Below, piece by piece: positions 17,564 to 41,783 of a stretch of 42,063 bases of DNA (its first letter is position 1; the number at the start of each line of letters is the position of its first letter). The notes beneath the pieces are model-generated. The model was not told the DNA's origin. It did not search any database and saw nothing but the letters and a program-made list of their open reading frames with translations. Position numbers and translations under genes: made by a program. Source of the DNA: Prevotella sp. (GTDB lineage Bacteria > Bacteroidota > Bacteroidia > Bacteroidales > Bacteroidaceae); NCBI GenBank assembly GCA_017556145.1, contig JAFZCU010000212.1, positions 1 to 42,063 on the forward strand. The letters run 5' to 3'.

Positions 17564-19609
17564 TCAACAGTTAATAAACAACCAGCCATTCCACCCCAGC
17601 AGGAAAACTGCCAGCAAGGCTACGACGACTCTGAGCGGCAGATGCCATTTCGAGCTGGCAGACTTCAGGGCGTAGGCCATAGAGAGGGGGATGACAAACA
17701 ACCAGTGGGGGCCCATGATGTAGACTTCGTTGAGACCAAAGCCTAATCCCAAGTGCAGAGCCATGTCGAAGGCAAAACACGACAATATCAGCCACAGGAA
17801 TCGCTCTTTGCGCCCCATCCAGATGCCTATCAGGAATAAACCGACAATCAGTGCTTCAACCACGTAGTTGATGATATAGCGATATTCCACTACCACAGGA
17901 CGGCTTTTCAACGTATCGTCAAGCAGATAGTCCTGATGCAGTTGGATGGTCTCACCAAACAGATTATGAACCACTGCCTCCCAGCGGTCTGTCGACACAT
18001 CCGTCCACTTCATGAATCCCTCTTTGGCAATCGGTGTGCCTGCATGGGCATTCCAGGGATCCTTCATATTCTTCTCATGCACATCCCAGATATGCTTTCG
18101 GTACAGTTTGCGCCCACCTTGGATTATCAAGGCCGAATCCGTCTCTCCACTCTGTTCGGCATACAGTTTGATGAACTTCTCAAGGTCAGCCCGCTGTTGG
18201 GCTTTTTTCTGGACTTCTGCTGCCTTTTCCTGGGGCAATATATATTCCTGGTATTCCCATTTGCAGAACATCCACATCAGGGCTGCCGGCAGGACAACCC
18301 CCAACAACAGATATTTGGGACGGAAGAATCGCCACTTATTGGTGAACAGGGCTGCCAGATATACCTTCACACCATTGCTAAGAGTGACACCAGCTGTGAT
18401 TACAAACAAGAGGACTGTTTGCCAGATGCTGAGGCGTTGATCCTTGTTGATGGCTCTTCCGCAGATATATAAGGTGAGCAATAACAGCATCTGCGACATC
18501 ACGAAATGATCAGGCACAACGAGTCCTACCATCGTAAAGGCAAACCCAAAGAACATCGCATTCAGAATGATACCGTCGGTTTCTTTCAGGCCTATCACCT
18601 CTACCAGAATACGACGCATAAAGATATAGGAATAGAAACCACAGAACACCAATAGCAAGCCTACGAGGTATTGCACCAGATTCAAACCCGTCAGTTCTAT
18701 AAGACACGTGTTCAACAGGTATGGAATCCACATCATAAAGGCGAGCAACGGATGGCGATAGACGTTGTAACCCTGATACCAATTGGTAACAGTAGAATAG
18801 GTGATGGGATCGTAGCCGGATATCTTGAACTGAAGGATAAACTCCTTATAGTCATCAGGCATGATACCCACAAACTGGGGGTATTTGCTGATTAACACCA
18901 GATTCAGCAGCACTATCAGTATGAGTACGATGATTGCCTGTATCTTTTCAGAGGGTTTTATCCTAAACAGATTCGGTTGCCTGAACGGCTTATAATACGA
19001 CTGATCCGCAAAGCCAAGGAGCTCTTTATCGCCTCGGCTGTCGCCATAGGCGGTAAGATGATAATCCTGACGATGGGGGAAGAGCGCTTGTATGCGATTC
19101 ACTTTCTCCTCGCCATAGCAGTTCTTCGTGAGGAAACGGCCAGTCAGAAGGCCCTCCTCCACCTCGATCTGCGTTCCAATAACCCGTAAGCTCCTGTCTC
19201 CTGTCTCCTGACTCCTGTCTCCTGACTCCTGTCTCCTGACTCCTTCAAAAAATAGCTGTACCCAGTTGTCGATGGAGGCGCTGACAATAAGCACCTCGGC
19301 TCCATCGGCTTGGGCTTGCCTTAGCGTCTTTATGCCCTGCGGACGGAGCAGATGCTGATTGTCTTTTGCAAACCGCTGACAGAGGTCATCAAAAGCCTCC
19401 AATGTCATACCCCTGAAAAAATAGGAAAACACCTTCTGCTTTGCCTGATAGTTGGGATAGAGACGCAGTTTCATCAGCACCAGCAACGGGGCATATCGCA
19501 CGAATCCCTTAACAAAGGCCCAGAACCCACAGGCATAGCGGATAAACGCTATGAAAGAGTCCCTGGTGGTCAGTGTTCCGTCGAAATCAAAGGCAACGAT
19601 CTTTCTCAT
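17564..19609 (-). CDS. Fusion of a HAD-IB phosphatase domain and a GT-C-like multi-spanning membrane domain
   Basis: 681 residues. Residues 1-210 are a HAD-IB hydrolase: motif I DFDGTLT (Asp8, Asp10), motif II serine (VLIVSAS, Ser110), motif III/IV Lys169 and GDSRGD (Asp190, Asp194). Residues about 222-681 hold 9-11 membrane helices with an early acidic loop (MPDDYKEF) and NVYRHPLLAFMMW, a layout like GT-C glycosyltransferases using polyprenyl-linked sugars (resembling DUF6080 proteins). Inference: the phosphatase and transferase act on linked steps of lipid-linked glycan metabolism. An AGGAGWC heptamer array encodes residues 125-140 (RRQESGDRSQETGDRS) in the HAD domain after motif II. The start overlaps the acyltransferase stop by 4 bases. 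Confidence 0.75.
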   Translation of the reverse strand: MRKIVAFDFDGTLTTRDSFIAFIRYACGFWAFVKGFVRYAPLLVLMKLRLYPNYQAKQKVFSYFFRGMTLEAFDDLCQRFAKDNQHLLRPQGIKTLRQAQADGAEVLIVSASIDNWVQLFFEGVRRQESGDRSQETGDRSLRVIGTQIEVEEGLLTGRFLTKNCYGEEKVNRIQALFPHRQDYHLTAYGDSRGDKELLGFADQSYYKPFRQPNLFRIKPSEKIQAIIVLILIVLLNLVLISKYPQFVGIMPDDYKEFILQFKISGYDPITYSTVTNWYQGYNVYRHPLLAFMMWIPYLLNTCLIELTGLNLVQYLVGLLLVFCGFYSYIFMRRILVEVIGLKETDGIILNAMFFGFAFTMVGLVVPDHFVMSQMLLLLTLYICGRAINKDQRLSIWQTVLLFVITAGVTLSNGVKVYLAALFTNKWRFFRPKYLLLGVVLPAALMWMFCKWEYQEYILPQEKAAEVQKKAQQRADLEKFIKLYAEQSGETDSALIIQGGRKLYRKHIWDVHEKNMKDPWNAHAGTPIAKEGFMKWTDVSTDRWEAVVHNLFGETIQLHQDYLLDDTLKSRPVVVEYRYIINYVVEALIVGLFLIGIWMGRKERFLWLILSCFAFDMALHLGLGFGLNEVYIMGPHWLFVIPLSMAYALKSASSKWHLPLRVVVALLAVFLLGWNGWLFINC
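19191..19244 (-). repeat. AGGAGWC heptamer array inside the HAD/GT-C fusion gene
   Basis: Seven complete 7-base units plus a partial one, alternating AGGAGAC and AGGAGTC on the sense strand. It is in frame and codes for charged, polar residues. A change of one or two units would shift the frame and truncate the protein before motif III and the membrane domain. Confidence 0.9.
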
Positions 19610-20682
19610 AGCTTCGGACTTGGTATTTTATGGATTAACTTCATGAACAGCCACGAGAGGAAGACGGTGGCCACCACATAGAGCAGCAGACCTGCATACT
19701 GGTCTTGTTGATAATACGGTCGCACAAAGACTTTACGCACGATGGGATGAACCACGAAGATGGCGGCAGAGATACCACCCAGCCAAACGATATAGGGGGA
19801 TAGCTTTTGAGGCGTCAGCTTCACCAGTGCAATGGTACCCCAGATAATCAGGGCTGGAACGAACAGCCAACAGACAAAATCGGTACTGGCGTAGAAAATG
19901 CCAGCCACCGCCACAAGCAGACTCAATAGCCATATGAATAGCTGGTGCTTACCCGTAGGCACCTTCCAGTCTTTTGCGACACCTTGTTCGTAGCGTGCCT
20001 GCAGCAGACCTATGCCAAAGGGCAGCATGCCACCTACGAAATTATAGCGCAGCCGCTCCAGCGCCACCATATCGTTTTCAACACAGACTTGCCAAGCTCC
20101 GAACACCACAATACAAATGGCAACCACACCCCAATGCCGCCAGCGGTAGAACACCAGACGGTATAAGATGTACATCTGAAGGGTGATGCTGAAATACCAA
20201 TAGGGCCCAGGCCACACCACCTTCGAGGGATTTTCGAAGAAGTTGGCGAACATACCCAGCATAGCCACCACTTCTGTCCACAGATACCTGTGCATATTGG
20301 GTGTGATAGCGTCGAGCAAGATAAAGGCTACAAATCCCACGATGAAGATACGGAACAGTTTCAGGTAACTATAGCGTATGAATCGCCAGATACCCACCTC
20401 AGGGAGGTCTCCCTGTTCGTACTTCTTCACCAGTCCGTAGCCGCTGAGAAAGAGGAAGACGGGTACACCATAGTGTCCGAAGAAAGAAAGCAGGTGCATC
20501 GGCAGCAGTTCATCGGGATGTTGCACTACCTGCCACAACTGGTCCCATTTCTCATATTGCCAGGTGTACTCATTTTCCCTGACAATGCCCTTCAGCCAAT
20601 GGGTATAGTTGTGCAGCATGATGGCGAGGATGGCTATTCCCCTCATCGCCGTACATTCCTTCCGTGTCAGCAGTTCCTTCAT
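19606..20682 (-). CDS. Acyltransferase family 3 membrane protein
   Basis: 358 residues, about 10 membrane helices. The N-terminus RKECTAMRGIAILAIMLHNYTHW has the AT3 arginine and the conserved histidine of the second motif region; FFGHYGVPVFLFLSGYGL is the next family signature. AT3 proteins O-acylate (mostly O-acetylate) surface polysaccharides, lipid A or peptidoglycan. It sits between the phosphoethanolamine transferase and the HAD/GT-C gene, overlapping both by 4 bases, so they are translationally coupled. Target glycan unknown. Confidence 0.88.
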   Translation of the reverse strand: MKELLTRKECTAMRGIAILAIMLHNYTHWLKGIVRENEYTWQYEKWDQLWQVVQHPDELLPMHLLSFFGHYGVPVFLFLSGYGLVKKYEQGDLPEVGIWRFIRYSYLKLFRIFIVGFVAFILLDAITPNMHRYLWTEVVAMLGMFANFFENPSKVVWPGPYWYFSITLQMYILYRLVFYRWRHWGVVAICIVVFGAWQVCVENDMVALERLRYNFVGGMLPFGIGLLQARYEQGVAKDWKVPTGKHQLFIWLLSLLVAVAGIFYASTDFVCWLFVPALIIWGTIALVKLTPQKLSPYIVWLGGISAAIFVVHPIVRKVFVRPYYQQDQYAGLLLYVVATVFLSWLFMKLIHKIPSPKL

Positions 20683-22529
20683 TTCTTCAGCGAATTATAA
20701 TCTGTTTCCCCCTTCAATATTCGAGGCCGTTTCACATCGTATGCAGGACTGATGACATTCAGTTCCTCACGGTAAAGCGGGGTGGAGATGCCTCCGAGAT
20801 AGAGCAGGAAGTGAGGCAGGACATCCGTCATCATAGGACGGTCCTTTGCAGTTTGAATCGCCTGCCAGCCATAGGGATGGTTCTCACGATATTTTGGCGA
20901 ACCCCAGATCCAGAAAGGAATCTCCATCTCATTGCGCGCCAGCCGATAGTCAATCTTGGCAGCGTGCAGGCGACCATAGATATAGGGTTTGTCATCAAAG
21001 ATCTCTTCGCCATGATCAGGCATATAGATGACCACGGCATCCTCTTCAATAAAGCGCCGGGTGATGGCATATACGATGGAATCGTTGTACCGCAGCGAAT
21101 TGTCGTATTCCGACAGCAACTGCAATTGTCTGGCCGTCAGTTCCGGACGCTGATACATGTCAGGCGTAAAGTATGTCTGCGTCTTCTGCGGATAGCGTGA
21201 CTGATAGTCCACGTGCGACCCCATGAGATGCAGAATCACCAACTCTCCTTCTCTCCTTACTCCTTCTCTCCTTACTCCTTCACTCCTGTTTTTCAGCGCA
21301 TCATACTCCTTCAGCACGCCGTCATCGAAACGATGCAGACGGGTGTTGCGGGTATCAAACTGCGATTGGCTCAATCTCGGGATATTCAGGAAGAACCCGC
21401 CACTGAAATCATAGAACTTCTCCTTGGCCTTCGACTGAAACTGGTTGGTGATAAACGTCACGTGGTAACCGGCCTTGCGGAACACCTCAGGAAAGAGGGG
21501 CTGGTCGCACCATTCGCCTTCATCGCCGACGGCATACAGCGACATCACATCCTTGAAGACGAAACTCGTCAGATTCCAAGGTGCCACCACATCTGTAAAG
21601 GCCACCAGGCTACCTTCGGCAGCCAGTTCCATCTCACGTGGTGTCGTCGCCCTCTGATAGCCATACAGCTGGGAATGGTACTTGTTATAGCTTTCTCCAA
21701 TAATCAGAACGATGTTGGGCACTCGGTACGAGCAGCTGTCCACCACCACCTTATCGTGTGCCGCCATCAGTTGGTCTATCTGGTGCGAAGCCAAATGATT
21801 GGCATAGATGCCGAAAGCCATCCGATAGATGGGGATATATAGATTGGCACAATCCTTCCGGGTCAGTTCGTGTTCCACCTGTCCGATGGTATCGTTGGCA
21901 AACAGGCGCTGCATCGCCACTTTATTATCCCAGCATTGATTGTAGGAATCAATCAGCAGCCACGCCACCACACCCCCCAGAAGGGCCTTGCCAACATCAA
22001 GCACCAGCGGATTGACCTTTGGCATAATCATCCGCATGCGTAGCTTGGCCAGTACGTTACGCAGGATAGTCCACAGAATATGAACCAACATCAGCAGCAG
22101 AATCCAGCCTACGTGTGTGTGGATAATGTCCCAGTTCAGATAGGAGGCCAGAAATTCTTGTGATTCCCGCTGGTTGGTCTCACCCATCAGCATCAGCATC
22201 GTTGGCGTCAGTGTCGATTCGAACTTCACGTAGCAGAACATATCCACCAAAGCAACGCCATACAGTACGATATAGAGCAGAACCCTGACCCAATAGCGCA
22301 CTTTCTGAGGAATCAGAGTCAGAACGACACAAACAGCATAGATGTCAAGGAATAGTTCTGGGGCCGACAGCTCATAGGGTTTGGCGCCTTTCAGGTGTAG
22401 GGTAATCTCCAGTTGTGTACAGATCCATCCCAGCGCGAACATAAACACGAAGAATGCGCCGTTCTTCTGAATAGGCGTAAAGAGATACCCTATCCACTTC
22501 AAGGGATTGATATGTTTCTTACCTCTCAC
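20679..22529 (-). CDS. Phosphoethanolamine transferase (EptA/CptA-like, sulfatase fold)
   Basis: 616 residues. Four or five N-terminal membrane helices (to about 205), then a periplasmic alkaline-phosphatase-like domain. Nucleophile region NIVLIIGESYNKYHSQLYGYQRATTP has Ser280 where E. coli EptA has threonine; HLMGSHVDY (His439) and PDHGEEIFD provide zinc and substrate ligands. It should move phosphoethanolamine from phosphatidylethanolamine to lipid A core or another glycan. The GTG start at 22529 overlaps the nadD stop (GTGA) and lies inside a GAGGTRA repeat. Residues about 416-429 (SEGVRREGVRREGE) come from an in-frame purine-rich repeat just before the conserved HLMGSH segment. Donor and acceptor not proven. 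Confidence 0.85.
   Translation of the reverse strand: MRGKKHINPLKWIGYLFTPIQKNGAFFVFMFALGWICTQLEITLHLKGAKPYELSAPELFLDIYAVCVVLTLIPQKVRYWVRVLLYIVLYGVALVDMFCYVKFESTLTPTMLMLMGETNQRESQEFLASYLNWDIIHTHVGWILLLMLVHILWTILRNVLAKLRMRMIMPKVNPLVLDVGKALLGGVVAWLLIDSYNQCWDNKVAMQRLFANDTIGQVEHELTRKDCANLYIPIYRMAFGIYANHLASHQIDQLMAAHDKVVVDSCSYRVPNIVLIIGESYNKYHSQLYGYQRATTPREMELAAEGSLVAFTDVVAPWNLTSFVFKDVMSLYAVGDEGEWCDQPLFPEVFRKAGYHVTFITNQFQSKAKEKFYDFSGGFFLNIPRLSQSQFDTRNTRLHRFDDGVLKEYDALKNRSEGVRREGVRREGELVILHLMGSHVDYQSRYPQKTQTYFTPDMYQRPELTARQLQLLSEYDNSLRYNDSIVYAITRRFIEEDAVVIYMPDHGEEIFDDKPYIYGRLHAAKIDYRLARNEMEIPFWIWGSPKYRENHPYGWQAIQTAKDRPMMTDVLPHFLLYLGGISTPLYREELNVISPAYDVKRPRILKGETDYNSLKK
21243..21288 (-). repeat. GGAGTAA/GGAGAGAA tandem array inside the phosphoethanolamine transferase gene
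   Basis: About three alternating 7- and 8-base units (15-base period, five codons) on the sense strand, encoding SEGVRREGVRREG. The same words fill intercistronic gaps before gmk and argH and occur in mntP. Confidence 0.88.
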
Positions 22530-22546
22530 CTCTTACCTCTCACCTC
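22519..22546 (-). repeat. Four GAGGTRA heptamers across the nadD/phosphoethanolamine transferase junction
   Basis: Exactly four 7-base units (GAGGTGA and GAGGTAA alternating on the minus strand). The array encodes the last residues of NadD (LEVRGKR), the overlapping stop/start GTGA, and the first residues of the next protein (MRGK). It also gives a purine-rich, ribosome-site-like stretch before the GTG. Confidence 0.88.
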
Positions 22547-23077
22547 TAAATACAGCCTTTTCTCTTTGATAAAGTCTGCCACAACTCCAGGCACCAGCCT
22601 GCGGATGCCCTTGCCCGCCTTGATACGCTCCCGAATCTCCGTGCTGCTGATATCAATAAAACCAGGCTCGCCAGGCGTCCTGTCGTAGACGAAGATCTGA
22701 TAGTTGGCAGCAATATCCTCATGGTGGTACCAACGGTCGAAGAGCGCCCAGTTATCACCACCCATCAGCAGCACGAACTCACGGTCAGGGTAATCTTTTG
22801 AGAGATGTTGCAGCGTATTCCAGGTATAAGAAGGTTTCGGCAGATGCATCTCGTAGTCGGAGGCCACGATGCCCTCCACGCCTTCGAGGGCCATACGCGC
22901 CATCTCCATACGGAGGTTGTCATCGAGCAGATCAGCCGACTGCTTCAGGGGATTCTGGGGCGACACCATCAGCCATACCTCATCGAGCCCAGCCCGCTTC
23001 CGCAGTTGCTGTGCCAGAGAGATATGTCCCTTGTGTATGGGATTAAACGACCCCCCGAATATCCCCGTCCGAATCAT
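22526..23077 (-). CDS. nadD: Nicotinate-nucleotide adenylyltransferase
   Basis: 183 residues. Nucleotidyltransferase signature GSFNPIHKGH (near residues 10-19) and ISSTEIRERIKAG near the end are family hallmarks. It converts nicotinate mononucleotide and ATP to deamido-NAD in the cytosol. The start overlaps the gmk stop by 4 bases; the stop overlaps the next start. Its C-terminal LEVRGKR is encoded by the junction repeat and is unlikely to be essential. Confidence 0.94.
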   Translation of the reverse strand: MIRTGIFGGSFNPIHKGHISLAQQLRKRAGLDEVWLMVSPQNPLKQSADLLDDNLRMEMARMALEGVEGIVASDYEMHLPKPSYTWNTLQHLSKDYPDREFVLLMGGDNWALFDRWYHHEDIAANYQIFVYDRTPGEPGFIDISSTEIRERIKAGKGIRRLVPGVVADFIKEKRLYLEVRGKR

Positions 23078-23643
23078 AAAAAACTTTTCAACAGTTCCAA
23101 GGCATCCTGCTCTGCCTGAGCGAGATCATCGTTGACCACAATCTTGTCAAACTTGTCTGCGAAAGTCAGTTCAAACTCAGCCCTTGCGATGCGCTGGTCT
23201 ATCACCTCCGGGGCATCCGTACCGCGACCCTCCAGACGCTTGCGTAGTTCGGCAATCGAAGGGGGTTGGATAAACACGCTCATCGCTTCGTCGCCATAAT
23301 ACTTCTTGATGTTCACACCACCCTTCACGTCAACGTCGAACACCACATTCTGTCCGGCCTCCAACTGACGTTCCACCTGAGCCTTCAGCGTACCATAGAA
23401 GCGACCTTCATACACCTCTTCATACTCTAAGAACTCATCGTTCTCTATCCTTTGGCGAAACTCCTCTGGTGTCAGGAAGAAATACTCCACACCATTCTGC
23501 TCCGTACCCCTTGGCGGCCTCGACGTGCAGGATATCGAAAATGCCAGGTTCAACTCCGGATGCTCCTTCATCAGCCATCCGATAATCGTCGACTTTCCCG
23601 TTCCACTCGGCGCACTGATAATAATCAACTTCCCTCTACTCAT
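23074..23643 (-). CDS. gmk: Guanylate kinase
   Basis: 189 residues, full length. P-loop SAPSGTGKST (10-19), GMP-binding CTSRPPRGTEQNGVEYFF, and DVDVKGGVNIKK are all present. It phosphorylates GMP/dGMP with ATP in the cytosol. The ATG is preceded by one base-for-base repeat array ending GGAG directly at the start codon, so the array serves as the ribosome-binding region. Second gene of the yicC operon, the common yicC-gmk pairing in bacteria. Confidence 0.96.
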   Translation of the reverse strand: MSRGKLIIISAPSGTGKSTIIGWLMKEHPELNLAFSISCTSRPPRGTEQNGVEYFFLTPEEFRQRIENDEFLEYEEVYEGRFYGTLKAQVERQLEAGQNVVFDVDVKGGVNIKKYYGDEAMSVFIQPPSIAELRKRLEGRGTDAPEVIDQRIARAEFELTFADKFDKIVVNDDLAQAEQDALELLKSFL

Positions 23644-23679
23644 CTCCTTACTCCTTCTCTCCTTACTCCTTCTCTCCTT
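23644..23679 (-). repeat. GGAGTAA/GGAGAGAA array filling the yicC-gmk junction
   Basis: The whole gap between the yicC stop and the gmk ATG consists of alternating GGAGAGAA and GGAGTAA words on the sense strand, ending GGAG next to the ATG. It offers five overlapping AAGGAG-like ribosome sites in 36 bases. Confidence 0.9.
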
Positions 23680-24554
23680 TACAACGCATTCAGCACCTGT
23701 TCCTTGATCTGTTCCAGTTCGTCCTTCATCTTCACCACGATGTTCTGCATCTCGGCCTGATTACTCTTCGAGCCCGTCGTATTGATCTCACGTCCCATCT
23801 CCTGGGCGATGAATCCCAGTTTCTTACCCTGTCCCGCAGGCTCTGCCATCGTCTCGCGGAAATACTTCAGATGGTTGGCCAGGCGTTGTTTCTCCTCACT
23901 GATGTCGAGCTTCTCGATATAGTAGATCAGCTCCTGTTCCAGGCGATTCTTGTCATATTCCACGTCCGGAATCTGCTTCAGCCCGCCCTCGATCCTGGCC
24001 TTGATCTTCTCCACGCGTCCCTTTTCGTAGGGCTCGATGTCTGCCAGCAGCTGGGCGATGTTATCAATCTTCTCCGTGAATTTCTTCTCAAGGGCAGCAC
24101 CCTCCTGTTTGCGGAAGTCCACCAGACTCTTCAGCGCGTCTGCCACAGCGCCTTTTACGATGGCCCACTCCGTCTCTTCGAGTGTCTCCACGTCTGTCTT
24201 CGTCAGCACATCCGGCATACGGGTCAGCGTAAACATCCAGTCTTCCGGTTCAGGAATGCCCACCTTCTGGGCCACGTCCTTCAGCTGGTGGTAATAGTTC
24301 TCCACAAGCGCCGCGTTCACGGGTGTCGCATCCACCATGCTCTCCTTCTCTATCCACACGCTCATATCCACTTTCCCGCGGATCAGGGCCTCTGCCACCA
24401 TTGCCCTGCACTCCATCTCCTTTTCACGATAAAGGGGGGCGATGCGTGTCTGTAAGTCGAGCTGCTTCGAGTTCAGCGACTTGATTTCCACATGAATTTT
24501 CTTGTCCTTGTAAGCCACGACAACATTGCCGTAACCTGTCATTGATTGTATCAT
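23679..24554 (-). CDS. yicC: YicC/YloC-family endoribonuclease-like protein
   Basis: 291 residues. The family start MTGYGNVVVAYKDKKIHVEIKSLNSKQLDL, the middle KKFTEKIDNIAQLL and the C-terminal EMGREINTTGSKSNQAEMQNIVVKMKDELE are the characteristic conserved blocks (YicC_N and DUF1732). E. coli YicC has been linked to RNA degradation. The protein is cytosolic. It heads an operon with gmk and nadD and envelope genes. An internal ATG at 24542 (MTGYGN) is an equally good start by conservation. Confidence 0.92.
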   Translation of the reverse strand: MIQSMTGYGNVVVAYKDKKIHVEIKSLNSKQLDLQTRIAPLYREKEMECRAMVAEALIRGKVDMSVWIEKESMVDATPVNAALVENYYHQLKDVAQKVGIPEPEDWMFTLTRMPDVLTKTDVETLEETEWAIVKGAVADALKSLVDFRKQEGAALEKKFTEKIDNIAQLLADIEPYEKGRVEKIKARIEGGLKQIPDVEYDKNRLEQELIYYIEKLDISEEKQRLANHLKYFRETMAEPAGQGKKLGFIAQEMGREINTTGSKSNQAEMQNIVVKMKDELEQIKEQVLNAL

Positions 24555-24583
24555 ATCTTGCGTACCTATTTATATTTTGGGGA

Positions 24584-24591
24584 CAAAGGTA
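24584..24591 (-). promoter_or_regulatory. -7 box of the yicC operon promoter
   Basis: TACCTTTG on the minus strand, about 30 bases before the yicC start; TTCG at 24614-24611 sits at the -33 distance (19-base spacer). It would drive yicC through GT2. Confidence 0.6.
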
Positions 24592-24727
24592 GTATAAAAT
24601 TTCGATTAAGCGAAGAGAATTCAAATATATTTGCATTCTTGAGCGTGAGAAATTTATCTAATTCAAGCGAAAAACCAAATAAAACATAAAAAAAGCGACA
24701 GAATCTGTAAGTAAAAAGGTAAAGCAA

Positions 24728-24755
24728 AAAAATATTGTAACCTACTAAAGGTTAC
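24728..24755 (-). terminator. Candidate intrinsic terminator for the upstream minus-strand genes
   Basis: On the minus strand GTAACCT, a 5-base loop and AGGTTAC (24755-24737) are followed by AATATTTTTTT. The stem is short (7 bp), 210 bases beyond the stop at 24966, so the assignment is tentative. Confidence 0.45.
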
Positions 24756-24815
24756 TTTCATACCTGCAAAAAGGTAGAAAGCGCCTAACAAAAAGGATGG
24801 AATGTACGGAGTATA

Positions 24816-24899: not shown

Positions 24900-24965
24900 T
24901 ATATTTTCCGGAGGCTAGATTATTATTGTAATAGGGATTCTATTGTTATAACGAGAATTAAGAGC

Positions 24966-25508: not shown

Positions 25509-25510
25509 GT

Positions 25511-30633: not shown

Positions 30634-30697
30634 GGTGCAAAGATACGAAAAAGTTTATAGTTTATTGTTTATAGTTTATAGTTTTTTTGTAATTTTG
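30634..30697. promoter_or_regulatory. Bidirectional promoter cassette with GTTTATA heptamers (GH36 and mntP), copy A
   Basis: Leftward -7 box TATCTTTG (minus, 30645-30638), rightward -7 box TAATTTTG (30690-30697), and between them four GTTTATA/GTTTATT heptamers (30653-30680) flanked by A5 and T7 runs. Nearly identical to the segment 41783-41721 read on the minus strand. Confidence 0.85.
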
Positions 30698-30733: not shown

Positions 30734-31348
30734 ATGAGTCTACTGGATATCATCCTTTTAGCGATTGCTTTGGCGATGGACTGCTTTACGGTTTCCATTG
30801 TCAGCGGGGTGATTTTGATGAAGGAGAGAAGGAGAGAAGGAGTAAGGAGAGAAGGAGACAGGAGTCAGGAGACAGGAGGTATCCTGCGGATGGCGTTCCT
30901 CTTCGGCTTTTTCCAGGCTTTAATGCCGTTGTTGGGCTGGTTAGGCATCAGTCATTTCCAATCGTATATGGAAGCCTACGACCACTGGATAGCCTTCTTG
31001 ATGCTCGCGTTCATCGGCGGCAAGATGATCAAGGAGAGTTTCGGACCAGAAGAGGAACAGCATTTCAATCCCAGTAGGCTTCGCACCCAACTGCTCTTGG
31101 CCATTGCCACCAGCATTGATGCCTTAGCTATTGGTATTTCCTTTGCCTGTACGGGGTTTACGGAACTGTCCCAACTCACCATGCCCTTGTTGATCATTGG
31201 CATCGTGTCGTTTCTTTTCAGCATCATCGGTTATCACTTGGGCCGTCGCTTCGGAAAGACGATAACCCGTCGCATGAAACCAGAATTATTGGGAGGCGTC
31301 ATCCTCATCCTGATTGGTGTAAAGATTCTTATTACACACCTTTTCTGA
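30734..31348 (+). CDS. mntP: Manganese efflux pump MntP, with a repeat-encoded cytoplasmic or periplasmic loop
   Basis: 204 residues, six membrane helices. First helix motif ALAMDCFTVSIVSG and fourth-helix motif ATSIDALAIGISFA carry the paired aspartates needed for Mn2+ export. Residues about 30-49 (KERRREGVRREGDRSQETGG) between helices 1 and 2 are encoded by two fused repeat families (GGAGAGAA/GGAGTAA, then AGGAGWC). The loop is longer and more charged than usual in MntP. ATG 30734 follows AAAGGAATATT; upstream in-frame codons precede the promoter and are excluded. No yybP-type manganese riboswitch fits in the 36-base leader. It abuts the convergent PAP2 gene with no gap. Confidence 0.9.
   Translation: MSLLDIILLAIALAMDCFTVSIVSGVILMKERRREGVRREGDRSQETGGILRMAFLFGFFQALMPLLGWLGISHFQSYMEAYDHWIAFLMLAFIGGKMIKESFGPEEEQHFNPSRLRTQLLLAIATSIDALAIGISFACTGFTELSQLTMPLLIIGIVSFLFSIIGYHLGRRFGKTITRRMKPELLGGVILILIGVKILITHLF
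30821..30879 (+). repeat. Composite GGAGAGAA/GGAGTAA and AGGAGWC array inside mntP
   Basis: Units read GGAGAGAA twice, GGAGTAA, GGAGAGAA, then GGAGACA, GGAGTCA, GGAGACA. The two word families seen separately elsewhere are joined here in one in-frame tract. Confidence 0.9.
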
Positions 31349-31927
31349 CTACCAACGGAGGACGAAGTCGATCGAGTTTCCCGTAAAGGCAAGCGTGGCG
31401 TTTTGACGGGGGAAAAGACGGTCGGTGACATAGTAGGTGAGTTCGGTGGAGAGGAAACCGATGGCGGCACCTGCACAGGCATCATACCAATGGTGACGAT
31501 CACGACACACACGATCGACCGCTGTGAAAGTCGCAACACCATAGCCCGCGACAGATATCCAAGGTGACAAATGTCCGAATTCTTTATGTAACACAGTAGC
31601 CCCAGCAAAGGCGAAAGCAGAATGCCCAGAGGGGAACGAGCGGTTGTCGCTATCGTCAGGGCGCCACTCATGGATGGAGTGTTTCAAAGTATAGGCAATA
31701 CCAGCCGAGACCGCCCAAGAACCTGCCGTTGCCACCAGCAGCTGCGGCCATTCGTCACGACTCTCCACCCCGCAGGCTTTCAGTGTCAGTACGGAGGCAT
31801 AGGGCACATACTGCAATACATCGTCGAGATGGTCGCTATGCCGTTGCTGCGCGGAAGCTGTGAGTAGTGAACAGTGAATAGCGAATAGGAACGCTATCAC
31901 TCTGATATATGGCCTTGTTTTTATCAT
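31349..31927 (-). CDS. PAP2-family phosphatase (secreted/periplasmic)
   Basis: 192 residues with signal peptide MIKTRPYIRVIAFLFAIHCSLLTASA. PAP2 motifs are in order: K-x6-RP-like (KHSIHEWRP), PSGHSAF, and R-x5-H-x3-D (RVCRDRHHWYDACAG). Such enzymes remove phosphate from lipid phosphates, including undecaprenyl pyrophosphate, at the outer face of the inner membrane. The signal-peptide core is encoded by 7-base words (31859-31886). Start ATG 31927 sits just behind the TAACTTTG box (31943-31936), so an upstream frame opening at 31990 is rejected. Divergent from the B12 operon. Confidence 0.85.
   Translation of the reverse strand: MIKTRPYIRVIAFLFAIHCSLLTASAQQRHSDHLDDVLQYVPYASVLTLKACGVESRDEWPQLLVATAGSWAVSAGIAYTLKHSIHEWRPDDSDNRSFPSGHSAFAFAGATVLHKEFGHLSPWISVAGYGVATFTAVDRVCRDRHHWYDACAGAAIGFLSTELTYYVTDRLFPRQNATLAFTGNSIDFVLRW
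31859..31886 (-). repeat. Degenerate 7-base words encoding the PAP2 signal peptide
   Basis: On the plus strand AGTGAAC, AGTGAAT, AGCGAAT follow each other at 31866-31886 after TGTGAGT. In the PAP2 frame they encode FAIHCSLL. Related to the TTTTCAC family near 31970. Confidence 0.55.
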
Positions 31928-31935
31928 TTCAGCTG

Positions 31936-32014
31936 CAAAGTTACGAAAAAATACAAAGCGGCAGCAAATTTTTCGCTTTTCACTTTTCATTTTTACCTTT
32001 TTTTGCTATCTTTG
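31936..32014. promoter_or_regulatory. Divergent promoters for PAP2 and the B12 operon with a TTTTCAC-type heptamer spacer
   Basis: Leftward: TAACTTTG (minus, 31943-31936) with TTTG at 31968-31965, 21 bases apart. Rightward: TATCTTTG at 32007-32014. Directly before it are five 7-base words TTTTCGC, TTTTCAC, TTTTCAT, TTTTACC, TTTTTTT (31970-32004). The ends resemble the 30634 and 41721 cassettes although the heptamers differ. Confidence 0.8.
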
Positions 32015-32020
32015 CACCCG

Positions 32021-32178
32021 TAATCGGTTCACCCTTTGGGTGAGGAGAGAGGGAATCAGGTGAAAATCCTGAGCAGTCCCGCTGCTGTGAGTCGTCCTTT
32101 ACGGCGCAAGCTTGAAGTCACTGAGATTATCGGGAAGACGTTTGCTGCCAGACGACAAGTCAGAAGACCTGCCGATGA
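32021..32178 (+). ncRNA. Cobalamin (AdoCbl-type) riboswitch
   Basis: Conserved blocks in order: GGTTCACC, GAGGGAATCAGGTGAAAATC, CCGCTGCTGTGAG, GTCACTGAG, GGGAAGACG, and the B12 box AGTCAGAAGACCTGCCGA (32158-32175). AATCGG at the 5' end pairs with CCGATG at the 3' end to close P1. It lies in the leader of a B12 uptake operon, where cobalamin binding should repress expression. Confidence 0.94.
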
Positions 32179-32191
32179 GCCATAGTCGTTT

Positions 32192-32220: not shown

Positions 32221-32238
32221 AGAAGGGAAAAGAGAATA

Positions 32239-34451
<2,213 letters not shown>

Positions 34452-34455
<4 letters not shown>

Positions 34456-35633
34456 AAAGATGGATGCTCTACATATGGCCCTTGCTGATGCTTACCGCCT
34501 GTCGTAACGATGTGATGGTGGTGCCGATGGAGGATATCGATACGGGAGGCAAGACCGTTATGAGCGAGATTGTGGGCATGTATCTGCTGAACGAGGGGAA
34601 CATGGGCTCGAACAAGTCCTCCTTGGATTATCTCGACCTCTCTGCCAGCGGCTCTACCGTCCACTATCTGCGCAACATCTATTCTGAGCGTAATCCCACG
34701 ACTGTGATGATGTTGGGCGATGTGGGTAATGACTGTCAGATCTACGGCTCACGCCTATGGCTGGTCATCAACTGTTCCAACAAGGTAGAGGTGGCTCGTG
34801 CGGAGGATGCTGTGAGGATAGGCAAGGTTGACATCCCCAATTGCCGTTATGTAGCGTTCAAGGACGGGTATGCCTATGTTTCATCGTATGTGGGCTCTGT
34901 TTATGGAGTCGGGAGTCAGGAGACAGGAGACAGTAGTAGTCCGTTGGGTAGCGTGTATAAGGTCGACACCCTCAGCCTCACAAAGGTGGATTCCTGTGCG
35001 GTGGGTTATCAGCCAGAGGAAGTTGTCATCCTCGATAACCAGCTCTTTGTTGCCAACAGTGGCGGCTATCAGGGAATGACGGGTCAGGGTTATGAGAGTA
35101 CGGTGAGTGTGGTGGACCTGAACACCATGCAGGAGACGGACAAGATAGAAGTGGCCCCCAATCTGCATCGCCTCAGGGCTGACAAGTATGGTCAGCTGTG
35201 GGTGACATCCAGAGGCAACTACATGGATCATAAATCATCCATTTACTGGCTGGTGAAGGATGCGACAGGCAGGATGACGGTGGGTGGCCATCTGAATCAA
35301 CCCGTGAGCGATCTCTGCATCGTGGGCGACTCCCTTTATTTCTATGGCAGTCAGTGGAGTGAGGTGACGATGACGAATACCGTTACCTATGGCATCATCA
35401 ATGTACGCACCCATGAGATTGTCAGCACCTCGCTTTCTGATGCGCCAGAGATCGGCAAGATCCGTATGCCATACGGTATCATCGTAAATCCCATCCATCG
35501 CGATTTCTACCTGATGGATGCCAAGAACTATGTTTCCAGTGGTGAACTGCTGCATTTCCTGCCTGATGGTACCTTCGACTGGAAGGTCAAGACGGGTGAT
35601 ATCCCTGCCCACGCAGCATTTTTAAAAAAGTAA
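34452..35633 (+). CDS. btuG: BtuG-like cobamide-binding surface lipoprotein (YncE-type beta-propeller)
   Basis: 393 residues. Lipoprotein signal with lipobox LMLTAC (Cys17), then a seven-bladed YVTN-like propeller with repeated blades such as VDIPNCRYVAFKDGYAYVSS, PEEVVILDNQLFVANSGG and STVSVVDLNTM. In Bacteroides the equivalent gene next to btuB is BtuG, which caps the receptor and captures B12 at the cell surface. The ATG overlaps the btuB stop by 4 bases. Residues about 152-160 (GVGSQETGD) come from a short AGGAGWC array in a loop. The symbol rests on context and fold. Confidence 0.85.
34904..34931 (+). repeat. Short AGGAGWC array in the btuG-like gene
   Basis: TGGAGTC, GGGAGTC, AGGAGAC, AGGAGAC: four units, two perfect, in frame (GVGSQETGD), followed by AGTAGTAG. 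Confidence 0.8.
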
Positions 35634-35651
35634 AAAGGTAAAAAAGTAAAA
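35624..35651 (+). repeat. GTAAAAAG words across the btuG stop and the next start
   Basis: About three 7-8-base words (AAAAAGT, AAAAAGGT, AAAAAAGT) covering the stop codon and the full 19-base intercistronic gap. Complementary to the tract at 35704-35738. Confidence 0.75.
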
Positions 35652-35652
35652 T

Positions 35653-36807
35653 ATGAAACAGGCTATAATTATATGTGAGAGAATAATTTTAAAGGCGAAA
35701 TGGTTTTTACCCTTTTACCTTTTTACCTTTTTACCTTTAAATGCCCAGCGGATGGACAATGTGCCAGAGCATTCGAAATACATTCAGGCGGTTGATGAAT
35801 ACCGTCCTGCACCAGGACAGAATGTGAACGACATCCCGGAATATGAGGAGGGCGATACAGAGATTACGATGGCACAGAAGTGCACAGAGCGGATTGCTGG
35901 TGACTATAAGAATACCCATCTCATTTCCTTGGGTGGCTGGGGTGGCTATGTTACCTTCCACTTTGACCACTCCATCGCCAATATCCCTGGTCAGCGCGAT
36001 TTTGCCATCTGGGGCAATGCCTATCAGGAACAGACTAATCAGGTGTTTGGTGGCATGAACGAAGCAGGAATCGTGATGGTGTCGAAAGATACAAACGGCA
36101 ACGGACTGCCTGACGACCCTTGGTATGAGATCAGTGGCAGCTGTGATGTGGACAGCATCGGCAAGGTAATCTATAACTATGAGGTGACCTATCAGCGCAA
36201 CCCCATGGGCATTATTCCTTGGATAGACAATCAGGGTCATAGTGGCACGATAGAACGCATCAATCAGTGGCATCCACAGGAGTATTATCCCGAATGGCTA
36301 CCTGACGGACTCACCTTCCGAGGCACACGACTGCCCGATAATATGATAGACCTCACAGAAACCGTTGAGCGAACATGGAGTCAGTGGTACTTTGTGCTTG
36401 TAGGCTTTCGCTATGGCTATGTTGATAACCTTGCAAACTGGACAGACAAGGCGGATGCTAACTCATGGAACTATGAAGGATGTGGTATCGATATCTCATG
36501 GGCTGTAGACGAGAACCGTCAATCTGTCAACCTCGACTTCATCGACTTCGTGAGGGTGTATACAGGCCTGAACCAGAAATGTCCTGCTCCCAACTGGTGG
36601 GGAGAGACATCGACGGAAATCCAGTGTGCAGAGGATCTTCACCTCGATGCCTCGCTTGATGCCATTCGCCAAGCCACAGCAATCAAGGCAATGGACAATG
36701 GACCATTGATAATGGATAATTATATCTACGATCTTCTGGGCCGTAAGATATCACCAAGGCAGAAGGGCATTTATATACAAAACGGAAAGAAAATAACCAT
36801 TCAATAA
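35653..36807 (+). CDS. Secreted surface protein of the B12 operon, unknown function
   Basis: 384 residues. N-terminal signal peptide with hydrophobic core FLPFYLFTFLPL ending NAQ. The mature part has GGWGGYVTFHFDHSI, a calcium-loop-like DTNGNGLPDD and several aromatic-rich strands, as in the cell-surface proteins that sit between btuG and DUF4465 genes in Bacteroides B12 loci. The last 25 residues (YDLLGRKISPRQKGIYIQ) are the same tail type as on the xylanase, probably for secretion or anchoring. The signal core is encoded by TTTTTACC repeats, and a heptamer tract encodes the linker before the tail. A cobamide-binding role is inferred from context only. Confidence 0.78.
   Translation: MKQAIIICERIILKAKWFLPFYLFTFLPLNAQRMDNVPEHSKYIQAVDEYRPAPGQNVNDIPEYEEGDTEITMAQKCTERIAGDYKNTHLISLGGWGGYVTFHFDHSIANIPGQRDFAIWGNAYQEQTNQVFGGMNEAGIVMVSKDTNGNGLPDDPWYEISGSCDVDSIGKVIYNYEVTYQRNPMGIIPWIDNQGHSGTIERINQWHPQEYYPEWLPDGLTFRGTRLPDNMIDLTETVERTWSQWYFVLVGFRYGYVDNLANWTDKADANSWNYEGCGIDISWAVDENRQSVNLDFIDFVRVYTGLNQKCPAPNWWGETSTEIQCAEDLHLDASLDAIRQATAIKAMDNGPLIMDNYIYDLLGRKISPRQKGIYIQNGKKITIQ
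35704..35738 (+). repeat. TTTTTACC octamer array encoding the signal-peptide core
   Basis: Four 7-8-base units (CTTTTACC, TTTTTACC type) encode FLPFYLFTFLPL. Bases 35713-35727 pair with 35637-35651 at 14 of 15 positions, so the mRNA could fold into a stem enclosing the start codon. Confidence 0.82.
36690..36717 (+). repeat. AATGGAY heptamers in the linker before the C-terminal tail
   Basis: AATGGAC twice, CATTGAT, AATGGAT: four 7-base words in frame (AMDNGPLIMDN), directly before the YDLLGRK tail. Confidence 0.75.
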
Positions 36808-36836
36808 ACATGTTTCACTTTAAAACAAAAAGCATC

Positions 36837-38718: not shown

Positions 38719-38730
38719 GAATACGACTAC

Positions 38731-39273
38731 TTAGTTCCAGGCGCGAAGGATGGAACCGTCGAACGAACAGTAGTAACGCATCAGCGATGAGCCCTGATCA
38801 CCTTTGCTTATGGCTCCCGTTTCCAATTCGTACGTACGTTGGCAGCGGGAGCAAATCACTTGTTGGCGATTTCCAGTCCAGTTCATGGCCTGCAGGCTGC
38901 TGCAGTTTGGACAGGCACGATCGTATGCCCAAAGACCGTTGAAATTGGTGGTGCCGATAAAGAGTCCGATGCTGTTGCTGGCACCAAGCACGTAGCTGGA
39001 ATAGTTCTCGAGGTCGCTGCTGATGATGTTGTCTTCCTGTGGCGTCTTCTCATCGTTGCTATTCACATAGACATGACGGACACTGGTCTTTCCGTCGCCC
39101 TTGGTCGTCACATAGACATAAGTACCTGGATTCTGCGCAGCGGCAAAGAGCAGGCTGGTGGCGTGGTCCCTGTAACTGAAGACAAAGCGACAGACGTATT
39201 TCCTGCTCACAGGTGCCTCCGCCTCGCACGCCGTCAACCATACCCCCAACAACAAGATCAGTAATCGTCTCAT
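38731..39273 (-). CDS. Lipoprotein with a C-terminal CxxC zinc-ribbon/Rieske-like domain
   Basis: 180 residues. Signal with lipobox WLTAC (Cys16). The middle part (VCRFVFSYRDHATSLLFAAAQNPGTYVYV) has no family I know. The C-terminal half carries CPNC and CSRC pairs (YDRACPNC ... VICSRCQRTYELETGAISKG), 18-20 residues apart, like a zinc ribbon or a Rieske fold in which histidines are replaced by cysteines; a four-cysteine metal site is likely. Its ATG overlaps the argH stop by 4 bases, so it is the last gene of the pyrE-argH operon. Function unknown. Confidence 0.75.
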   Translation of the reverse strand: MRRLLILLLGVWLTACEAEAPVSRKYVCRFVFSYRDHATSLLFAAAQNPGTYVYVTTKGDGKTSVRHVYVNSNDEKTPQEDNIISSDLENYSSYVLGASNSIGLFIGTTNFNGLWAYDRACPNCSSLQAMNWTGNRQQVICSRCQRTYELETGAISKGDQGSSLMRYYCSFDGSILRAWN

Positions 39274-40601
39274 CCGATGAGTTTTTTCTCTGCCTCAGTC
39301 ATGCGCTCGAAATGGAAGCCGTCGAACGTCTGCTGCATCAAGGCCTGAATCTGATCATTGCAGAGATTACCGATAGAGCCTTCGTGGGTGTGGTGGATGT
39401 TGTGAGAAGCCTTGAAGTTGCCGGCTTCGATGTCGAGCCCTACCTTTTTATAGGCATCACGGAAGGGCATGCCGCTGGCAGCAAGACGGTTCACCTCCTC
39501 GACGCTGAACATCGGATCGTACATCGGATTATCGAGGATGTGCTCATTCACCTCTATCTTATTAATAATGTAGGCCGCCATCTGCAGACAGTCCTTCAGC
39601 TCGCCAAAAGCCGGCAGGAAGACTTCCTTGATAATCTGCAGGTCACGGAAATAGCCCACGGGCAGGTTGTTCATGATGAGTGTCACCTGCTGAGGCAGAG
39701 ACTGGAGTTTGTTGCATTTCGCACGAATCAGCTCGAACACATCGGGATTCTTCTTATGCGGCATGATCGATGAGCCGGTGGTACACTCCTTGGGGAGTTT
39801 CACAAATGAGAAATTCTGTGAGTTAAACAGACAGGCATCGAAGGCCATCTTGGCGATGGTACCGGCAATGGTGGCTATGGCAAAACCCACGTTACGCTCC
39901 ATCTTGCCTCTACCCATCTGGGCATATACCACGTTGTAATCCATCGAATCGAAACCCAGCAACTCTGTGGTCATCGTGCGGTTCAGGGGGAACGACGAGC
40001 CATAGCCGGCAGCCGAGCCCAAAGGATTGCGGTTGGTCATCTTATAGGCGGCTTGCAGGAAGAGCATATCATCCGTCAGACTCTCTGCATAGGCGCCAAA
40101 CCAAAGTCCAAACGAAGAGGGCATCGCAATCTGCAGATGGGTGTAGCCTGGCATCAGCACATCCTTATACTGATTGCTCTTCTGGATGAGTTCATCGAAG
40201 AGAATTTTCACCTCATCGGCAATCCCCTTCAACTCATGACGGGTGAAGAGTTTGAGATCGACGAGCACCTGGTCGTTGCGCGAACGGCCCGAGTGGATCT
40301 TCTTGCCCATATCCCCCAGTTTGCGGGTGAGCAGCATCTCCACCTGGGAATGCACATCCTCGACATCGTCCTCGATGATGAACTCACCGCGTTCTGCCAA
40401 GTGATAGATATTCTTCAACTCTGCCAGCAGTGCCTTCAGTTCGTCTTTCTCCAACAGTCCGATGCTTTCGAGCATGGTAATGTGGGCCATCGAACCCAGC
40501 ACGTCGTACTTTGCCAGATAGAGGTCCATCTCGCGGTCTCTGCCCACCGTAAACCGCTCTATCTCCTTATTGATTTCAAAGTTCTTCTCCCAAAGCTTCA
40601 T
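39270..40601 (-). CDS. argH: Argininosuccinate lyase
   Basis: 443 residues. Fumarase/aspartase superfamily signature GSSIMPHKKNPD with the catalytic serine loop, HSGRSRNDQV near the N-terminus and YTHLQIAMPSSFG with the active-site histidine. It splits argininosuccinate into arginine and fumarate in the cytosol. The usual full-length family protein is about 460 residues, so this is complete. The ATG is preceded directly by GGAG of a repeat array that fills the gap from the SRPBCC gene. Confidence 0.95.
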   Translation of the reverse strand: MKLWEKNFEINKEIERFTVGRDREMDLYLAKYDVLGSMAHITMLESIGLLEKDELKALLAELKNIYHLAERGEFIIEDDVEDVHSQVEMLLTRKLGDMGKKIHSGRSRNDQVLVDLKLFTRHELKGIADEVKILFDELIQKSNQYKDVLMPGYTHLQIAMPSSFGLWFGAYAESLTDDMLFLQAAYKMTNRNPLGSAAGYGSSFPLNRTMTTELLGFDSMDYNVVYAQMGRGKMERNVGFAIATIAGTIAKMAFDACLFNSQNFSFVKLPKECTTGSSIMPHKKNPDVFELIRAKCNKLQSLPQQVTLIMNNLPVGYFRDLQIIKEVFLPAFGELKDCLQMAAYIINKIEVNEHILDNPMYDPMFSVEEVNRLAASGMPFRDAYKKVGLDIEAGNFKASHNIHHTHEGSIGNLCNDQIQALMQQTFDGFHFERMTEAEKKLIG

Positions 40602-40630
40602 CTCCTTCTCTCCTTACTCCTTCTCTCCTA
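40602..40630 (-). repeat. GGAGAGAA/GGAGTAA array filling the SRPBCC-argH junction
   Basis: On the minus strand the SRPBCC stop TAG runs straight into GGAGAGAA, GGAGTAA, GGAGAGAA, GGAG and then the argH ATG. The tract matches the yicC-gmk junction array nearly base for base. Confidence 0.9.
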
Positions 40631-41059
40631 AACATAATGTACTTGTGCAAGGGCATCGGCAATCTTCTCGACACCTTCCTGCAGGGGTTTCTCCACCATC
40701 GCTTTGATGAAAGGATTAAGTTCGGCCTTCAAAGTCACCTTCATCTTCGAGTTCAACTCATCGACAGGCAGGACCTGAATCCAGACGTTGAAGGGTACAG
40801 GCGACTGCACCGTCTCGAACTTCACACACTTGGGCTCCTCGCGGTCGCAGATACGGAGTTTCAATTCTCCCACGGGAGCGACGTTGAGGCTTACGGTATT
40901 TTCATCGTACTTAAAGTCGTTGACCTTGTCCTCAGGCACACGATCCTGTACTTTCTCAAGGTTGCGCAGGTCGCTGATGTTGTCATACACAGCCTGCTGA
41001 GGGTAGGGAATCTGCTTCACACTACTCTCGAATTTGCTCTCACTTCCGAATAATCCCAT
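40628..41059 (-). CDS. SRPBCC-family (START-like) small protein
   Basis: 143 residues, no signal peptide. Pattern of a polyketide cyclase/START-like fold: N-terminal strand FESSVKQIPYPQQAVYDNISDLRNLEKV, VSLNVAPVGELKLRICDREEPKCVKFE, then LKAELNPFIKAMVEKPLQEGVEKIADAL as the long C-terminal helix. Such folds bind hydrophobic ligands; the ligand is unknown. It sits 6 bases after pyrE and runs into argH through a repeat. Confidence 0.78.
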   Translation of the reverse strand: MGLFGSESKFESSVKQIPYPQQAVYDNISDLRNLEKVQDRVPEDKVNDFKYDENTVSLNVAPVGELKLRICDREEPKCVKFETVQSPVPFNVWIQVLPVDELNSKMKVTLKAELNPFIKAMVEKPLQEGVEKIADALAQVHYV

Positions 41060-41065
41060 AATCGT

Positions 41066-41698: not shown

Positions 41699-41720
41699 AA
41701 GTGAATGAATTATTTGCGTG

Positions 41721-41783
41721 CAAAGGTACAAAAAAACTATAAACAATCAACAATAAACTATAAACTTTTTGTATCTTTGCACC
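41721..41783. promoter_or_regulatory. Bidirectional promoter cassette with heptamers (pyrE and esterase), copy B
   Basis: Leftward -7 box TACCTTTG (minus, 41728-41721) with TTG at 41750-41748 (19-base spacer) inside the repeat; rightward -7 box TATCTTTG (41772-41779). The core on the plus strand is AACTATA, AACAATC, AACAATA, AACTATA, AACTTTT. Read on the minus strand it matches copy A (30634-30697) with a few mismatches and one single-base gap. Confidence 0.85.

Follow-up and report, generated by a model that had tools for sequence, protein, structure and literature searches.

Tandem arrays of seven-base words have been described in several bacteria. The known heptamer simple sequence repeats or short tandemly repeated repetitive sequences (SSRs/STRRs) are GGGAATC in Xanthomonas, GGGGAYT in Nostoc and TAACTGA in Beggiatoaceae and some Bacteroidetes (PMC4692102, PMC4679880), and the available part of one report also mentions, for intergenic regions of some Bacteroidetes, further heptamer repeats and larger assemblages of heptamers (PMC4679880). 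Here we describe the tandem arrays of a 42,063-nucleotide stretch of Prevotella sp. (assembly GCA_017556145.1, contig JAFZCU010000212.1), referred to at its full length as the window, and of related genomes. These arrays are near-perfect head-to-tail repeats of 7-base units above chance and, like the SSRs/STRRs in the available parts of their descriptions (PMC4692102, PMC4679880), they are patchy among relatives and often located in intergenic regions and near start codons. They differ in that there a genome is described as having one word or a few, whereas here many words and a polar tail are found together with convergent pairs, housekeeping-gene and signal-peptide sites and differing words at orthologous sites. 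STRRs are independent single arrays with no further architecture; the tail and the convergent pairs depart from this, while many arrays are still single and tail-less. A preliminary description of the window took cyanobacterial STRRs as the nearest parallel. They are a parallel, but elements resembling miniature inverted-repeat transposable elements (MITEs) or paired repetitive extragenic palindromes (REPs; the pairs are called REPINs) and the Bacteroidetes heptamer assemblages (PMC4679880) are nearer.

The BrickBuilt MITE of Porphyromonas gingivalis is similar in having tandem units (of 23 bases) with a leader, a tail and small inverted-repeat ends, but in the available part of its description it has one unit type and is always intergenic (PMC4596501), whereas here there are many 7-9-base words and the arrays themselves are the inverted arms. 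The units here are mostly of 7-9 bases, and 74 of the 150 arrays in the window's own genome lie within called open reading frames (ORFs). The conserved terminal inverted repeats of a MITE were not observed either, as the arms are mutually inverted and their sequence varies between copies and species. P. gingivalis, the host of BrickBuilt, belongs to the same order as Prevotella. REPINs are similar in size to the paired arrays, and they have a RAYT transposase and arms of fixed sequence. The array arms have no fixed sequence and do not track the Y1 transposase domain among the few genomes compared. REPINs and GTAG-tagged REP palindromes are, in the accessible parts of the reports (PMC3116915, PMC3733652), inverted pairs of short dispersed motifs, as the paired arrays are. 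A GTAG-type, REP-like palindromic module is present inside some arrays, but it is a separate module and the inspected paired arrays are without it in their arms, where a REPIN would have one in each. Borg tandem repeats are likewise fast-evolving, present between and within ORFs and independently arising, while a fixed unit length near 7 and paired inverted arms are not mentioned in the accessible part of that report (PMC9879509). What is already known comprises heptamer repeats, mobile inverted pairs of REPs and, from the Bacteroidales, a MITE built of tandem units. Among titles and abstract openings, outside preprints and subscription journals, nothing was found on heptamer arrays of Prevotella, on the pairing of heptamer arrays or on signal peptides made by arrays; nor, within the same literature, was the combination of many words, matched paired arms, differing words at orthologous sites and signal-peptide use.

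The reading that we tentatively favor is that many of the arrays are parts of dispersed hairpin cassettes, copied by template switching, and not free-standing microsatellites. The unit of such a cassette is an array of a 7-9-base word, often ending in GAWTAC or GAWTAG, and part of the arrays are opposed by a reverse-complement array, with a core of about 30-100 bp in between. The arrays have a common vocabulary, partial polarity and convergent pairing, and they are absent in homologues at several sites.

Arrays in the window and in related genomes

In the following, G000 is the window's own genome, and the other G and L numbers are other genomes and fetched loci. The own-genome sample of 624,951 bp consists of the window and 40 stretches, 25 of which (together with some stretches of relatives) lie on contigs chosen from earlier word matches. 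Arrays were taken from Tandem Repeats Finder at a score of at least 30. All sixteen arrays named in the preliminary description were recovered, with periods of 7, 8, 14, 15 or 23, and additional rows were found at 32223, at 15092 (a weak one) and as a nine-base inverted pair at 1794/1841. The features of the window are listed below, where A, B and D mark sites compared between orthologous loci.

19191..19244, minus strand: AGGAGWC array inside the HAD/DUF6080 gene (17564-19609, minus strand), purine-sense
21243..21287, minus strand: AAGGAG array with 7- and 8-base units inside the sulfatase gene (20679-22529, minus strand)
22517..22547, minus strand: GAGGTRA array spanning the junction of genes 22526-23077 and 20679-22529
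23643..23680, minus strand: AAGGAG array with 7- and 8-base units filling the yicC/gmk junction
30652..30684, plus strand: GTTTATA array between two promoter-like -7 boxes
30820..30878, plus strand: AAGGAG array leading into an AGGAGWC array, inside the MntP gene
31860..31888, plus strand: GTGAANA array; on the minus strand, the signal-peptide-like part of the PAP2 gene 31349-31990
31970..31994, minus strand: partner arm located where the called PAP2 ORF begins, with the tail ATTTGCTGCCGC after it
32223..32252, plus strand: GTGAAAA array at the TonB receptor gene start, with the tail AATTGCTACCGC; site D
32728..32929, plus strand: AGGAGWC array of 29 copies in the linker that follows the TonB plug domain; site B
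34322..34351, plus strand: GTTTAKA array close to the end of the TonB gene
34905..34937, plus strand: GGAGTCA array in the DUF5074 gene
35623..35651, plus strand: GTAAAAAR array forming the upstream (purine) arm of the signal-peptide hairpin; site A
35652..35704, plus strand: core between the site-A arms, with the start codon and n-region
35705..35738, plus strand: TTTTTACC array, downstream (pyrimidine) arm, encoding FLPFYLFTFLPL
36689..36720, plus strand: AATGGAY array close to the 3' end of gene 35653-36807, accompanied by a local inverted copy
40596..40629, minus strand: AAGGAG array with 7- and 8-base units filling the junction of genes 39270-40601 and 40628-41059
41734..41766, plus strand: GTTTATA-type array between two promoter-like -7 boxes
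1794..1819, plus strand: nine-base array just past gene 499-1788, first arm of an inverted pair
1841..1865, minus strand: second arm of this pair, partner of 1794..1819

The boxes around the arrays at 30652..30684 and 41734..41766 are only promoter-like, with respect to what we take to be the -7 box consensus. The inverted pair of nine-base words at 1794-1865 resembles a terminator hairpin after gene 499-1788.

The over-representation of period 7 that had been suspected was confirmed. Twelve exact period-7 runs (at least 10 matches) were observed in the window against means of 0.0 and 0.06 in 50 simulated sequences each of order 1 and order 5; they fall in four arrays, with nine of the twelve within the array at 32728. 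Other exact runs are two of period 8, four of period 15, one of period 6 and none of period 5. The excess extends beyond the window, as the own-genome sample holds 99 period-7 arrays and two order-3 simulations gave none (12.5 arrays of all periods on average). Large-sample simulations were few, one in the first own-genome tally and two or three per group in the period tally. After period 7, the most frequent periods were 9 (39 arrays), 8 (25), 15 (22), 21 (12) and 14 (7), followed by 10 (4), 12 (3), 11 (2) and 6 (1), with none of period 5 or 13. The second rank of period 9 counts DNA words and codon repeats together. The 15 stretches that were not chosen for their words contain 17 period-7 arrays in 144,946 bp.

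The density of period-7 arrays is patchy within the genus. We found 41 in 120,000 bp of G009, 42 in 159,735 bp of G006 and 23 in 111,945 bp of G031, then 5 in 59,742 bp of G007, 2 in 24,223 bp of G013, 1 in 40,000 bp of G004 and none in the 20,000 bp each of G002 and G003, while samples of 5-40 kb from each of 16 further genomes yielded 0 to 6. In nine other families of the order, nine stretches totalling 128,517 bp contain 2 period-7 arrays, against 0.33 simulated. The window's genome is of Prevotella type: among 497 relatives of the TonB receptor, the 80 best belong to entries labelled Prevotella, Prevotellaceae, Xylanibacter or Hoylesella, apart from one 'uncultured bacterium', and many of these entries mention ruminant stomachs; no relative was found in the viral contigs searched. 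The array phenomenon is one of a group of Prevotella genomes, many from the rumen, with sites in genes and at gene starts. The window's genome is in 242 contigs and is 83% complete with 5% contamination, so that an assembly or binning artefact has to be considered. We regard it as hardly credible: the arrays occur within open reading frames, recur in many independent records and are also present in L185 (Prevotella sp. P6B1, not labelled as a metagenome-assembled genome), with arms matching at sites A and C.

The expectation that the words are made locally was not borne out, as they recur at many unlinked loci. Three consecutive copies of GGAGWC occur at 164 (overlapping) places in the own genome and, among 60 genomes including it, elsewhere only in G013 (3 places) and G031 (9 places). 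Other word families are GTTTADA, GTGAANA, GAGGTRA, GTAAAAAR, AAGGAG(AG/T), ATTGAYA and GTTGANA, and other Prevotella species have word sets that overlap with this one but are different. In 43 of 80 fetched orthologous loci (L166-L207, L225), words are common to different sites in 73 of 630 comparisons within a genome and in 912 of 13,060 between genomes, an excess that permuted labels reached 2 times in 300. Many of the arrays are also polar: GA[AT][AT]A[CG] (GAWTAC or GAWTAG) occurs within 26 bases of the 3' end of the purine-rich strand, independently of the word. In G000, G006, G031, G009, G004 and G007, this tail is found at the 3' end of 31/150, 18/46, 9/38, 9/44, 1/8 and 0/7 arrays respectively, against 5, 0, 1, 1, 0 and 0 at the opposite end and 6.5, 2.3, 1.7, 2.0, 0.3 and 0.3 at random places. 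A fifth to two fifths (20-39%) of the arrays in array-rich genomes carry it. GTGAANA arrays have their own tail ATTTGCTDCCGC, which they precede in 6 of its 7 matches within the G000 sample and in all 3 within G031. No long flank common to all arrays was found, and across word families only the short tail recurs.

Several other repeats were noticed. The GTAG-type palindromic module AAAGGCTACGGGTAGGCGAGCRNAGCTCGGGAATG occurs in 25 of 150 same-genus genomes, also within coding sequence, for example at L073 (about 17784-17819), L025 and L111 in G000 and in L041, L052 and others. It has 7 places in G000 at no more than one mismatch, and three of the four inspected are inside AGGAGTC arrays. A second, different-looking repeat forms period-22 arrays at L053:1605-1682 (G003) and L043:17753-17878 (G006), where a kept 12-14-base motif (e.g. 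the palindrome TCACCATGGTGA) is joined to a variable remainder. Intergenic mosaics in G009 (L081, L056) combine GATTGCGGAAAT-like words, the palindrome TTGTCATCTGCGATGACA, heptamer arrays and ACTTGTCT words in a recurring order.

These observations bear on plain replication slippage with a preferred 7-base step, in which each array grows in place from a local 7-mer. A role of polymerase contacts in heptamer slippage was reportedly suggested by Mrazek in 2007. Period 7 leads, with 8, 9, 14 and 15 next, and L178 and L180 have a common core with different unit numbers, as slippage would predict. Local growth fails to explain the few recurring words at unlinked loci, the word-independent tail, the convergent pairs and the matched arms of different words at one orthologous site. 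In our view slippage is refuted as the full account, for which we consider it quite improbable, while it stays as one step and may set the unit length; the available parts of two reports contain a polymerase-contact idea of this kind (PMC4692102, PMC4679880). The copying process proposed in the preliminary description, blind to sequence and fixed on length, stands in part: unit length 7 leads over many words and above simulated controls, but such a process leaves unexplained the common vocabulary, the polar tail, the convergent pairing at a spacing of about 60 bp and the matched arms with differing words.

Convergent pairs and orthologous sites

The use of arrays as signal-peptide cores, differing words at orthologous sites and the matching of an arm to its own partner are established as well. 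In the 43 orthologous loci, neighboring pairs with common words were 29 inverted convergent, none divergent, 3 ambiguous and 4 direct, with convergent gaps of 32-101 bp (median 59), and 18 neighboring pairs had no common words. The 29 convergent pairs come from orthologous loci and hence are not independent. In the own-genome sample, 12 of 13 neighboring same-word pairs are inverted and one is direct, and inverted and direct pairs number 8 and 12 in G006, 4 and 0 in G031, 1 and 1 in G004 and 2 and 37 in G009. This first tally covers ten genome groups, with the G000 arrays merged to 150. The cores can be alike while the words differ, as was observed in G006, G009 and three leaders of L076 in G000. 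In the latter (L076:3400-9120, G000 C196), three adjacent genes whose proteins are unrelated by eye have nearly the same leader start, MKTN(I/K)Y...V(I/L)(A/V)GV, followed by three different words.

At site A (gene 35653), 43 of 81 loci kept both neighbors and at least 70% identity. Eleven of these have a native 71-bp leader without pairing arms (scores 6-8), while 22 of the 32 longer alleles have arms that match at 19 or more and belong to eight word families, labelled by eye. The arm match within a locus averages 18.9 against 10.8 across loci, and none of 20,000 permutations reached it. Similar results were obtained at site C, another gene start (10.65 against 6.68; 11 of 43 at 15 or more), and at site D (9.4 against 7.45; 7 of 43 at 15 or more), with 0 of 5,000 permutations at each. 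At site B, the TonB linker, the length is exactly 9 bp in 53 of 81 loci and shorter in seven, and 21 were read as 20 bp or more; 17 of these long inserts belong to five word families (also labelled by eye) at the same place, the unlabelled ones being L167, L186, L193 and L202. The TonB DNA tree requires at least 21 state changes for site A among 34 labelled rows (ten rows of the 44-row tree being unlabelled) and at least 13 among 40 for site B. These counts are without a shuffled-label control, and they overcount events where neighboring regions recombined. L197 and L225, about 95% identical over long stretches, have different words and cores at sites A and C; their flanks at site C are about 90% identical and the gene after site A is more diverged. 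At other positions the picture varies: near 34322 sister species have other words, near 34905 some have the same word, and among seven relatives compared at the yicC/gmk junction four are without an array and three have other hairpin words.

A cobalamin riboswitch (RF00174, 97 bits) was identified at 32008-32190 (plus strand) of the window, upstream of the TonB receptor gene 32239-34455, and this receptor is therefore probably a corrinoid (BtuB-like) receptor. It is the only Rfam match in the window at gathering thresholds.

Arrays within genes and signal peptides

The prediction that homologues would lack the arrays held at several compared sites, namely in the sulfatase, the DNA ligase LigA and the TonB linker. 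The sulfatase array corresponds to 9 residues that are absent in the two homologues aligning through the site. The LigA gene of G000 contains an array, a spacer and an inverted array, giving 42-46 residues where 8 of 13 relatives (G001, G004, G005, G006, G008, G036, G037, G039) have 0-18 bp between the matched halves; of the other five, one is split over contigs and four are at only about 30% identity. The loops of five relatives have 3-10 residues against 46 in G000, and stretches matched to the solved ligase 2owo are 5 residues apart there and 48 in G000. AGGAGWC arrays are also located in genes matched to solved MurB, MiaB, FolK and TrmH-type structures, and in FolK the unaligned stretch has 20 residues against 4. 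Further genes with AGGAGWC arrays are presumably MutS2, RluD and KdtA, judged from their motifs. The presumed MutS2 gene (L013:2306-4933, G000) has two such arrays.

A non-autonomous mobile element of the MITE/REPIN kind, moved by a transposase and with the arrays as terminal inverted repeats around the core as its body, would account for the block-like LigA insertion, for the patchy presence among relatives and for a unit of roughly 100-150 bp in fixed orientation with similar dispersed cores. Against it, no sequence is fixed at the ends, single arrays are numerous, the core at a gene start is an n-region specific to that gene, and words change at a fixed site, unlike the behavior of a transposon. 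Visual inspection of the LigA junction showed no target-site duplication; the nearest relative compared there, at 78.5% protein identity, is too distant for a base-exact empty site. The Y1 domain is unmatched in the array-rich G008, and no transposase family was found among 20 scanned proteins at 17.5-41.7 kb, in line with the preliminary description, which saw no mobile-element gene nearby. We consider such an element unlikely.

The orientation of the arrays fits coding tolerance. With a simple ORF caller, which called 92% of the G000 sample coding, AGGAGWC arrays in genes are purine-sense in 22 cases and pyrimidine-sense in 3, whereas G000 arrays of all words at most 110 bp from a start are pyrimidine-sense in 18 cases and purine-sense in 2. 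Many pyrimidine-sense arrays near starts encode a hydrophobic stretch, for example FLPFYLFTFLPL in gene 35653. At the matched gene starts, one arm is located at or before the start and the other encodes the hydrophobic core of the signal peptide, and at least 9 complementary 7-mers were found upstream of six such near-start arrays in G000 and one in G031.

This geometry raises the alternative that an mRNA hairpin at the translation start, acting as a switch or a stabilizer, is under selection, so that words drift and pairing is kept. Arms match at three gene starts, and three of six folded 5' regions gave z values of -3.4, -6.2 and -8.2; the others gave -0.6 (a region cut short by its chosen ends), -1.8 and -2.2. 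On the other hand, 21 of 43 site-A alleles are below 19 (11 of them native), 32 of 43 at site C and 36 of 43 at site D are below 15, and the changes involve entire words rather than single compensated bases. The interior of the LigA and TrmH genes, where a start-codon hairpin has no role, also contains convergent pairs of similar geometry. These in-gene pairs and the frequent unpaired alleles speak against an mRNA hairpin as the sole cause, and as the general explanation we consider it about as unlikely as a mobile element.

Possible origin of the arrays

In the hairpin-cassette reading, copies would arise when synthesis switches template on a single strand that has folded, for instance in a gap at the replication fork, and one arm would be templated by the other. 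Both arms would then have one word, and a new word would appear in both, because one arm is copied from the other. Folded-strand copying would give matched arms and convergent geometry; slippage alone makes no arm agreement, while units of about 7-9 bases may multiply by it within an arm. Recombination would spread words and cores within and between genomes. Selection may filter the outcome by site, so that AGGAGWC, which is open in every forward frame, is mostly inside genes, pyrimidine-sense arrays are in signal peptides and stop-containing words such as GTTTATAG are mostly intergenic.

A number of observations weigh against this reading. The ten groups together have 27 inverted and 51 direct pairs; 37 of the direct pairs are in G009 (mostly L057) and 12 in G006, and we read them, without proof, as interrupted arrays. 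Pairs are a minority, with 12 inverted pairs among the 150 merged arrays of G000, and the majority of arrays are tail-less. The MurB and MiaB arrays show little net change in protein length relative to the solved structures, and not every array appears, from such alignments, to add much length. Ten of the 32 long site-A alleles score only 5-13, and only 7 of 32 have their own partner at the first rank and 22 of 32 have it among the top five, which is due to words common to several genomes. The window itself is native at site C (score 6) and has unmatched arms at site D (score 8), and within one allele the two arms do not copy each other unit for unit. Around site A, where L190 and L191 carry different alleles, the identity between these two loci drops to about 85%, and because of this drop allele exchange may explain some word changes. 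Matched arms could instead be maintained by RNA-hairpin selection. Neither an enzyme nor an intermediate for array writing was found, and reverse transcriptase and Y1 do not track array density among the few genomes compared.

Two candidate writers were set aside on the few genomes compared. The reverse transcriptase family PF00078 is matched in G003 and partially in G002, neither of which has a period-7 array in its 20-kb sample, and is unmatched in G008, with 6 period-7 arrays in 13.5 kb. One Y1 transposase domain was found in G000 and none in G008, which is array-rich in the 13.5 kb sampled.

A more far-reaching proposal, which we hold with greater doubt than the cassette reading, is that of word-agnostic hairpin writing in rumen-type Prevotella. 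Matched pairs of 7-9-base arrays would be inserted at near-fixed spacing and both arms rewritten in one step, such that the architecture is inherited and the sequence is not, and the cassettes would double as interchangeable signal peptides. Orthologous sites with native and different-word alleles are a natural record of events, which makes the heptamer puzzle testable. Intergenic hairpins in such genomes should not be taken as conserved regulatory RNA without caution. Coding sequence, including the hydrophobic cores of signal peptides, is built from tandem DNA words in these organisms, and if the proposal is true, the secretion signals of unrelated genes would be re-made from stuttered DNA words.

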